A stretch of 36,931 nt of DNA. Origin: Bacillota bacterium. GTDB taxonomy: Bacteria > Bacillota > UBA4882 > UBA8346. Shown in pieces: positions 1 through 25,825 of the stretch. The notes beneath the pieces are model-generated. The model was given only the letters and a program-made list of their open reading frames with translations. It had not been told where the DNA came from and did not search any database. Made by a program: the position numbers and the translations under genes. Location: NCBI GenBank assembly GCA_012735315.1, contig JAAYHS010000032.1:1-36931 (forward strand), written 5' to 3'. Numbering within the stretch: the first letter of the stretch is position 1; each line of letters starts with the position of its first letter.

Positions 1-37
1 ATATATGAATATGAATCTATTAATTTCAGGACAGGAG

Positions 38-104
38 GTGTCAAGAGTAGGTTAAAACGCATATATTTCAGGTCTCCCTGAAATGTGCGCAAAATTCTTG
101 ACAC
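38..104. repeat. Short inverted-repeat element (MITE-like or IS-end remnant)
   Basis: A perfect 9-bp terminal inverted repeat (GTGTCAAGA at 38-46, TCTTGACAC at 96-104) bounds 67 bp. Inside lies a perfect 8-bp hairpin, ATTTCAGG (65-72) and CCTGAAAT (77-84), with a 4-nt loop. There is no room for a transposase. The layout suits a miniature mobile element or a pair of leftover IS ends. It sits immediately before the first open codons of the gene that follows. I see no clear target-site duplication. Confidence 0.45.
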
Positions 105-113
105 TACCCCGAA

Positions 114-1229
114 TTGGCCGACTTACAAAAGAAGGCTGAAGAATTGGATTCCATTAGCAACGTATCTGCCCGGAAATATGTTGACGTCTACTTCGAATTG
201 GCTGAGATTTATCTGAAGACGGGGTTAAAAGAGAAAGCGATGGAATCTTTGCAAAAAGGATTACGGTTGGAGTCTTGGAATTATAAGTACCAATTGCTGT
301 TAGCCAAGTTGGAAATAGACGCCCAACTTTATCTGAAAGCTTATGAACGCTTGCATTTTATAAATCGGTTTTGTGAAGATCGAGAATATTGTAGAATGGC
401 TGATAAGTTGTTGAAAAAGCCGGAGTTCAAAATATACATGAAACAAGATCCGCCGCCGTCCTTACCGGGTTATAAACTATACATAATACAATTTGAAGGC
501 GCTCAGCCAATTTTTATTGATGCGGTCGCTTCGCGAATCTTTCAAGTGTTTGGAATCGAAGTTGAAGTTTTAAATGAGCGGTTAAAACCGGATACCCGAA
601 AAATCAGAAATAATCGTGAGCATTTTTACGATCTAGTTATTAGGAATTATCAAATCCGTTTTGGGATGCATGAATATGATGAATTGTTAAGAAAAACAAA
701 TATTCCCCGGAGTAAAGCGGAAAACTTTAAAAGCAAGGAAACATTGGTTAAAGCGCTTTGTATGCAAGAGCCCAACGGGGGAGAACTTTGGAATTATATT
801 CAAGCGACAATTAGGGATCAATATGACGCCGAAGTCTTATTAAAACAGATTCAACAAAGTTTTAAAAAGAAGCTGGATTTACATGGCACAATAGGTTTAT
901 TAGGTATAACCGCCGATGATATATATTTCGATGATTACAATTATCTATTCGGCAGCGGTGAACCTCGTCTGGGGGTAATAAGCCATGCAAGGTTTTATGA
1001 TAACGAAACATCTTTAGATACAGCGATTAAACGGACGGTTATGCAAGCTTTTTCAACCACCGGTTTTATTATTGGAATACCGAGATGTACTTCACCGACA
1101 TGCGCGCGGGCTTATGCTCATTCTCTCGCGGAACATGATCGGAAAGAAGATCAAATATGCCGGGAATGTAGGGATAATTTAAGGGAAAGATATCGTGAAT
1201 TATCCATAACAAATGAAGAGGATGATTGA
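114..1229 (+). CDS. TPR protein fused to a catalytically dead archaemetzincin-like domain, probably 5'-truncated
   Basis: Residues about 15-105 look like two to three TPR-type helix pairs (LAEIYLKTGLKEKAMESLQKG). Residues about 120-371 match the archaemetzincin (AMZ) zinc-protease fold, including the stretch IGLLGITADDIYFDDYNYLF followed by RLGVISHARF. In active members the core is HExxHxxGxxHC followed by Cx4C and CxxC. Here the aligned core is STTGFIIGIPRC (314-325): all three zinc-binding His and the catalytic Glu are gone. The second, structural zinc site is kept (C325, C330, C349, C352). It is therefore predicted not to be a protease and may act as a binding protein. The frame is open from 102 with only a TTG at 114 and no ribosome binding site, right beside an inverted-repeat element, so the 5' end may be lost. 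Base composition is visibly AT-richer than in dnaB, suggesting transfer. Domain identity is fairly sure; function is unknown. Confidence 0.7.
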   Translation: MADLQKKAEELDSISNVSARKYVDVYFELAEIYLKTGLKEKAMESLQKGLRLESWNYKYQLLLAKLEIDAQLYLKAYERLHFINRFCEDREYCRMADKLLKKPEFKIYMKQDPPPSLPGYKLYIIQFEGAQPIFIDAVASRIFQVFGIEVEVLNERLKPDTRKIRNNREHFYDLVIRNYQIRFGMHEYDELLRKTNIPRSKAENFKSKETLVKALCMQEPNGGELWNYIQATIRDQYDAEVLLKQIQQSFKKKLDLHGTIGLLGITADDIYFDDYNYLFGSGEPRLGVISHARFYDNETSLDTAIKRTVMQAFSTTGFIIGIPRCTSPTCARAYAHSLAEHDRKEDQICRECRDNLRERYRELSITNEEDD

Positions 1230-7796: not shown

Positions 7797-8426
7797 CTAG
7801 AACGAGTAACCAATTCCAAATTCGATCGTATCGTCGGCGCCCTTTGTATCTACAATAGTGTAGTCCAAAAATGCGTAGACCTGTTCAATCGGATATACTT
7901 CAATACCGGCAATTATATCAGTGGCTGAATCATTATCATCCTTGGAATACTTGAAGCCAATATTACCGACGACCATGTCATTGAATCCGTATTCCGCTTG
8001 CCCCTTAATTTCAGTCCAATCATAGTCATCTATTTTATTAAAGTTAAGATCGCCGACTAAAGCGAGTTGATCGGATACACTGTATTTGCCTCTTAATCCA
8101 AACTTAGTACCAGGTTCCTTTTCATAGTCATTATACTCAAAATAAACAGCGATATTCTCTACAAACGCATAACGGGCGCCTAAAGTAAGATAGGCATCAT
8201 CATTATTTTTTTTATCTTTGGTGGTATAGCCAAGAGATAATTGTAGTTGTTCATTTAAACCATAATACCCGGTAATGGTCACGGGATCTACAGAAGGATC
8301 AATTTGTTTATATAATTCCACCGTTAAGCCCTCGGTCGCGCCGATACCGATGGTACTGGCCATTGTTCCGTATCCAACGGAAAGGGTCAACACGAGAGCT
8401 AAAGTAAGTACTAATAATCTTTTCAT
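7797..8426 (-). CDS. Small outer-membrane beta-barrel protein, copy 2
   Basis: The 209 aa protein has the signal peptide MKRLLVLTLALVLTLSVGYG with likely cleavage after TMA. The mature start STIGIGATEGLTVEL and the segments QIDPSVDP, GYYGLNEQLQLSLGYTT and GQAEYGFND are almost shared with copy 3. It ends GIGYSF, again with C-terminal Phe. The ATG at 8426 is chosen because AAAGGAGAAAG lies just upstream; an in-frame start 18 codons earlier would add a non-signal extension. Size and strand pattern suggest an eight-stranded barrel, like the OmpA/OmpW-size class, but I cannot assign a family. Confidence 0.78.
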   Translation of the reverse strand: MKRLLVLTLALVLTLSVGYGTMASTIGIGATEGLTVELYKQIDPSVDPVTITGYYGLNEQLQLSLGYTTKDKKNNDDAYLTLGARYAFVENIAVYFEYNDYEKEPGTKFGLRGKYSVSDQLALVGDLNFNKIDDYDWTEIKGQAEYGFNDMVVGNIGFKYSKDDNDSATDIIAGIEVYPIEQVYAFLDYTIVDTKGADDTIEFGIGYSF

Positions 8427-8560
8427 CGACTTTCTCCTTTCAAAGTTTTTCCAGCCTGATATTAATAAAGATTCCTTCAATTTATCAGTATTCCTGTTGT
8501 TGAAAAGTTAATTTTTTATGACATGATATTTTTTACATTTTGGTAATTATTGAGCGCGAC

Positions 8561-8610: not shown

Positions 8611-9243
8611 TTAGAACGAGTAGGAAGCTCCGAGAACGATGGTGTTGTCGGCGTTTTTATCATCCACCATGGTGTAGTCGACGTAGGCGGAGATTTGCTC
8701 AACCGGGTAGAACTCAATTCCGGCGATGATGTCGGTGGTGGCGTCGCCTTTATCGGGGCTGGCGTATTTAAATCCGAGATTACCGACGACATTTTCGGCT
8801 AATTTGTATTCGGCCTGGCCCGTGAGACCAATGGCTGAATTTTCCAAAAAAGCATAATCGGAGCTGATTTCGGCATAGCTTAGAATACCGACTAATGCCA
8901 ACTGTTCGTTGAGGTCGGATTTGTAGCGGAGTCCGAGTTCCATAGCATCTGCAGCGTCAGTCGTTTCATAATCGAAGGTTACGGCCATGTTATCCGCAAA
9001 CGCATAGCGGACCCCGAAATTTTTGGCTTCGATTTCAGTGGTGTAACCCAAAGACAGTTGCAGTTGCTCGTTAACTCCAAAGTAGCCGTTGATGGTGGTG
9101 GGATCAACTGAAGGATCGATTTGTTTTACTACTTCGACCGAGAAGCCCTCGCCGGCGCCGATGCCGATGGTACTGGCCATTGTTACGTATCCAAAGGCGA
9201 AGGTCATTACGAGAGCCATAGTGAGTGCGACTAATTTTTTCAT
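8611..9243 (-). CDS. Small outer-membrane beta-barrel protein, copy 3
   Basis: The 210 aa protein has the signal peptide MKKLVALTMALVMTFAFGYV with cleavage after TMA. The mature part starts STIGIGAGEGFSVEV and is strongly similar to copy 2 (QIDPSVDPTTINGYFGVNEQ, LSLGYTTEIE, TDIIAGIEFYPVEQISAYVD). It ends LGASYSF with terminal Phe. ATG at 9243 has ATGGAGG 12 bases upstream. The gene has its own terminator and is read away from yqfC. Role as a porin or abundant surface barrel is inferred from architecture only. Confidence 0.78.
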   Translation of the reverse strand: MKKLVALTMALVMTFAFGYVTMASTIGIGAGEGFSVEVVKQIDPSVDPTTINGYFGVNEQLQLSLGYTTEIEAKNFGVRYAFADNMAVTFDYETTDAADAMELGLRYKSDLNEQLALVGILSYAEISSDYAFLENSAIGLTGQAEYKLAENVVGNLGFKYASPDKGDATTDIIAGIEFYPVEQISAYVDYTMVDDKNADNTIVLGASYSF

Positions 9244-24974: not shown

Positions 24975-25802
24975 TCATTTCTTTCTTTTTTTCAAGGCCC
25001 GTTCCAACCATTCCTCGGCTTCTTCCTTGCTGACGTCGGAGAGGAGAGGGTCTTCGGTGATCCGCTCTACCGCCGTTTGTAAATGGGTGATCGCCGAGTC
25101 GAACTCGCCCAGTTCCAGTTCGGCGCGGCCGAGCCAATAAAAGGATTCCACCGGCCATTTCAAGCGTTCAATCACCCAGAGATAGTCGTCTTTCGCCTGT
25201 TGATATTCGCCCATCAGAAAATGAGTTTTGGCTATAATCAAAACCGGTTCCATGGCGGAGAGATCGCCGGTCCGGGCTTGTTCCGCGTATTCCAAAGCTT
25301 CCTGGAAGCGCTTTTGGTCGAGATGGATTAAAGCCAGATTCGTGAAAACTTTTAGGGGAGCGAACCCTTTTTGACGCAAAACTTCGAAAAGCGGCAGCGC
25401 TTTTTCGACATCCCCCGCGGCGCGGTAGGCCTCGGCAAGCCAAAGCCGATTCTGGTCATGGTTGCGCGGCGGCGCGAGTTCAACGGCTTGCTCCAGTAAT
25501 GGGATGGCCTCCGCCCATTGTTTGCGACGGGCGTAGTTTAGACCGAGCGTTAGATAGGGGTGGTGAACCGACGGCCGGCAAGAAACCGCTTTCCCCAACA
25601 AGCGTTCGACCCAAAGGGGATTGGGCGTGAATAACGCTGCGTAATTCCAGAAAACGCCGGGCGCAGTCAGATAAACCAAACCGATCCAACCCAAAAAACC
25701 CAAGCCGAATATCGGCCAACCCGGCCTGAGAATGACCGCGATTATTATCCAGAGCAATAATATCAGGGACAAGTTGGATTCCCAAATTTTTTTAAGATTC
25801 AT
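24975..25802 (-). CDS. Membrane-anchored TPR protein
   Basis: The 275 aa protein has two N-terminal membrane helices (about residues 11-27 and 29-46) followed by about five TPR-like units: LTLGLNYARRKQWAEAIPLL, WLAEAYRAAGDVEKALPLF, NLALIHLDQKRFQEALEYAE, AKTHFLMGEYQQAKDDYLWV and WLGRAELELGEFDSAITHLQ. TPR units bind partner proteins; the partner is unknown. ATG at 25802 is chosen because GGGAGG lies 9 bases upstream, inside the region of an earlier in-frame ATG. It has its own promoter and terminator, so it is monocistronic. Confidence 0.82.
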   Translation of the reverse strand: MNLKKIWESNLSLILLLWIIIAVILRPGWPIFGLGFLGWIGLVYLTAPGVFWNYAALFTPNPLWVERLLGKAVSCRPSVHHPYLTLGLNYARRKQWAEAIPLLEQAVELAPPRNHDQNRLWLAEAYRAAGDVEKALPLFEVLRQKGFAPLKVFTNLALIHLDQKRFQEALEYAEQARTGDLSAMEPVLIIAKTHFLMGEYQQAKDDYLWVIERLKWPVESFYWLGRAELELGEFDSAITHLQTAVERITEDPLLSDVSKEEAEEWLERALKKRKK

Positions 25803-25825
25803 CGTCAAACCTCCCATCTGAAATA

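Follow-up and report, generated by a model that had tools for sequence, protein, structure and literature searches.

Rare, apparently secreted pseudo-archaemetzincins with a TPR-like region, and their probably disrupted copy in a Bacillota genome

Archaemetzincins are poorly understood, and the need of catalysis for their biological role is still open. The subject here is an open reading frame at 114-1229 (plus strand) of the stretch of DNA analyzed here (the window, which is the entire contig C165 of 36,931 bases), described in an earlier note as a TPR protein fused to an archaemetzincin that had lost its protease site and kept its structural zinc site, and credited with a non-enzymatic binding role. 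With a probability of roughly 0.7, this gene is part of a rare, apparently secreted lineage of pseudo-archaemetzincins that may act by non-enzymatic binding, and in this genome it has most likely become a pseudogene recently. The features are collected in Table 1.

Table 1. Features of the disrupted gene and its 5' border in the window
Feature	Position	Strand	Basis and remarks
Right end of insertion sequence, terminal ...TTGACACTACC	1..108	+	Contig starts within the insertion sequence; matches four other genomic places
5'-truncated gene, TPR plus inactive archaemetzincin	109..1229	+	Ends with the stop codon 1227-1229; lacks its natural start
TPR-like helical region, residues 16-109	159..440	+	TPR_8 match and helices in the first model
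Archaemetzincin-like domain, residues 121-357	474..1184	+	PF07998, NF033823, AlphaFold, Foldseek; includes a helical insert around residues 158-225
Dead metzincin motif STTGFIIGIPRC, residues 314-325	1053..1088	+	Translation and alignment
Cys4 site C325-x4-C330-x18-C349-xx-C352	1086..1169	+	Translation and alignment with live members; R332 in place of the Met-turn Met

The loss of the catalytic machinery stood up well when live archaemetzincins of the same phylum, whose catalytic stretch reads HEVGHLLGLQHC, were aligned with the window protein. The core HExxHxxGxxHC is replaced by STTGFIIGIPRC, with the three zinc-binding His and the catalytic Glu all gone, and the alignment places CHEVGHLLGLQHC over FSTTGFIIGIPRC, which corresponds to changes of H to S314, E to T315, H to F318, and H to R324. 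As the HExxHxxGxxH catalytic zinc site is absent (the window reads STTGFIIGIPR), the protein is an inactive homologue and does not belong to the peptidase proper. The CxM methionine of the Met-turn is likewise replaced, by Arg332, a change that the earlier note had missed. Retention of the structural zinc site holds for the window copy, which has all four Cys, and not as a conserved trait: one relative (G318) retains two of the four (Cys1 and Cys4 are missing) and another (G400) three (Cys4 is missing), so that a complete Cys4 site is not a feature of the family.

The protein is rare: of 398 genomes sampled from the phylum, three have it, the window's own included. Further relatives were found neither in the family, the class, or the class of G318, nor among plasmid and phage records, and scans of 84,980 genomes and of viral contigs with the protein or the alignment returned none by a pattern method with little sensitivity for a family this divergent. 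Twelve further profile matches were rejected as relatives, being weak and directed to the TPR part or an adjoining stretch. The sole intact relative found, in G318 (protein P0002, from a genome of one contig of 3.8 Mb), has an unbroken reading frame of some 400 codons and aligns over its full length at 28% identity; the region matching the dead motif (QSLSSVVMILGVERA) is equally dead. It has about 45 additional N-terminal residues with the leader VRVITRALVGTTLAFLLTSAPIAQA, which, judged by eye, is likely a Sec signal peptide. In G400, 46 C-terminal residues remain, which are 63% identical to the window protein and adjoin a Mutator-family (IS256-type) transposase. Homologues sharing both the dead motif and the TPR-like part, for which the earlier note had proposed a search, are thereby represented by one intact and likewise dead protein, G400 being a C-terminal remnant.

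In the window, the frame comprises 371 codons with no internal stop and is open from the junction with an insertion sequence (IS) onward, with an in-frame TGA at 99-101. Bases 1-108 match four other places in the same genome (C47, C10, C196, and C201), and in an alignment of the five copies in total, all four diverge from the window directly after TTGACACTACC at base 108; this shared point of divergence marks the end of the IS. A similar IS end adjoins the G400 remnant. The transposase frame neighboring the C10 copy does not seem to resemble the Mutator-type frame of G400, although the IS ends are similar. The other side of the insertion was not found in a search by the expected target duplication. 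The 5' end of the gene was removed by an IS, and position 114, taken previously as the start of the gene, does not hold as a natural start: with the TGA and the end of the IS (base 108) just ahead of it, this TTG is simply where a start codon first becomes available past the junction, and the N-terminus is missing. No stop or frameshift has accumulated across the 371 codons, which suggests a recent disruption; most likely, the gene has lately turned into a pseudogene from which no exported protein is made.

The truncated gene could still yield a cytoplasmic protein from a downstream start. An internal start would then give a cytoplasmic TPR-pseudoprotease with a Cys4 zinc site, analogous to CarG as a zinc-stabilized protein-binding subunit; the unbroken 371-codon frame and the retention of all four Cys agree with this, as does CarG itself, a non-proteolytic archaemetzincin that needs each of its four Cys (PMC3427221). 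However, the frame starts right at the IS junction and no ribosome-binding site was seen upstream of the TTG at 114, the intact relative is apparently secreted, and no CarD-like gene is present among the nearest genes, which are dnaB and an ABC transporter gene, making such a product unlikely. A recently disrupted gene remains the preferred interpretation of the window copy.

The G+C content of the gene is 38.5%, versus about 50% in neighboring genes; three relatives in the same family have different genes upstream of dnaB, the same-genus genome G002 has unrelated sequence there over the 390 bases until its contig ends, and a protein search of the family found no other copy. Together, these observations suggest horizontal gain. 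Elsewhere in the window, two proteins encoded on the minus strand (7797-8480 and 8611-9243) have weak outer-membrane beta-barrel matches, and the genome also has YqfD and SpoIID, which suggests that the host is a diderm spore-former.

The loss of catalysis is old. In each of the three copies (window, G318, and G400), Arg stands in place of the third His and the Met-turn has lost its Met, implying that catalytic loss predates their split. Decay of a recently active protease was rejected, as no copy of the lineage has HExxH and the live archaemetzincins of the phylum (G269 and G472) are stand-alone proteins of 22-25% identity. Live archaemetzincins that stand alone are rare in the phylum, and two of them (L012, 1468-1968, and L032, 1459-1962) each adjoin a gene resembling an MFS-type transporter. 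A comparison of 46 codons of the window copy with the G400 remnant, short and spanning the Cys region to the exclusion of the HExxH stretch, gave pS=0.94 (synonymous change saturated) and pN=0.23 (Fisher p=2e-12, from rounded counts). Saturated synonymous change with modest pN points to past purifying selection on an already dead protein, and the protein, at least its C-terminal part, was long kept by selection.

This pattern also bears on the idea that the whole lineage is in decay, its genes having persisted by chance from an old protease and serving no function in any of the three genomes. Such a view would fit the extreme rarity of the protein, the breakage of two of the three copies beside IS ends, and the different erosion of the Cys site in each copy. 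Nevertheless, the selection signal just described, the intact frame of G318, and the conservation of TPR-part and fold residues across distant classes render general decay quite unlikely, and a lineage of maintained pseudo-archaemetzincins is favored.

Several lines of evidence place the domain in the archaemetzincin fold, in agreement with the earlier assignment. Peptidase_M54 (PF07998) matches residues 233-357 significantly (E=2.2e-11, 44.6 bits, cut-off 24.4), the NCBIfam archaemetzincin model NF033823 gives E=1.8e-19, with a score (70 bits) short of its cut-off of 145, and there are matches to four archaemetzincin sequences from PDB structures, among them 2x7m (E=3.7e-11 by sequence). An initial AlphaFold model, built from two sequences and without the live archaemetzincins used later, had a low mean pLDDT of 60.7 and a poor M54 part, and was usable for the TPR part only. 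A second model of residues 113-371, built from seven alignment rows, reached a pLDDT of 88.1 and a pTM of 0.80, and its five best PDB matches in Foldseek were all archaemetzincins, with a TM of up to 0.85 on target 3zvs_B; two of these rows were fragments of live archaemetzincins, which may pull the model toward that fold, although the matches by sequence do not depend on these rows. An extra helical segment (about residues 158-225) separates the second strand from the RDQY helix; it is also present in G318 and is termed an insert from the length of 2x7m ahead of the match. That the domain has another fold and resembles archaemetzincins only superficially, as the partial coverage by PF07998 and the NF033823 score under its cut-off might suggest, is largely refuted by the independent PDB sequence matches and the confident model, and retains hardly any probability.

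TPR-like helices precede this domain in the first model (block pLDDT mostly 71-93), and a TPR_8 match at residues 24-53 lies just below the cut-off (E=4e-5, 23.8 versus 25.7 bits); a relative gives 23.2 bits for TPR_19, with a cut-off of 25. A separate many-repeat TPR protein is encoded in the window at 24975-25817 (minus strand). The coupling was presented before as an arrangement with no known description, and none was found in the literature searched, where absence is no proof; the words archaemetzincin and tetratricopeptide occurred together in one structure paper, which deals with another zincin family.

The intact protein would consist of a signal peptide, about three TPR-like helical pairs, and an M54 fold from which the catalytic zinc site and the Met-turn have been erased. 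Beyond the cytoplasmic membrane it may bind other molecules without enzymatic activity or serve as a scaffold, with partner proteins or peptides possibly held by its TPR part and by what was once the substrate cleft, a functional interpretation that draws on a single intact sequence (G318). In the genome studied here, the IS has cut away the 5' end, and an exported protein is most likely no longer made. The binding role proposed earlier is plausible for the lineage, in view of the dead site, the archaemetzincin fold, and the loss shared with relatives, and doubtful in this genome, where the IS broke the 5' end and the region bearing the likely signal peptide in G318 is missing. The broader proposal, that Firmicutes-type bacteria share a conserved family of TPR-pseudoproteases that are exported and use the archaemetzincin fold without its catalytic metal site as a binding module, is tentative, with somewhat less than an even chance. 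The window copy matters less, as it is probably disabled; of wider interest is that a lineage has kept the fold minus every catalytic residue (and, in the relatives, minus part of the structural zinc site), which shows that this fold can be retained for non-proteolytic use.

Compared with known archaemetzincins (Peptidase_M54; AfAmzA, 3zvs/4axq, and MkAmzA, 2x7m), the window protein is predicted by the model to be alike in fold (TM 0.85, 3zvs_B) and shares the Cx4C...CxxC element, whereas it lacks the zinc-binding His, the catalytic Glu, and the Met-turn Met, and has in addition a TPR-like region in front and a helical insert following the second strand. Another parallel is CarG of Myxococcus xanthus, a non-proteolytic archaemetzincin in which the catalytic Glu is changed to Gln and each of the four Cys is needed (PMC3427221; PMC8156234); with its three His kept and the Glu lost (HQxxHxxExxHC), it is a transcription factor partnering CarD (PMC8156234). 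Both are of an inactive archaemetzincin type with a Cys4 site, but CarG keeps two zinc sites and has no TPR part, whereas the window protein lacks the first zinc site and has a TPR-like part. NF033824 (Myxo_non_zincin, 'non-proteolytic archaemetzincin-like protein') matches weakly (E=5e-12, 46 bits versus a cut-off of 250), so the window protein is not a member by score, and its existence means that dead archaemetzincins are already a named family. Inactive archaemetzincins are therefore known from CarG and NF033824, and what looks new here is the TPR fusion combined with total loss of the catalytic ligands.
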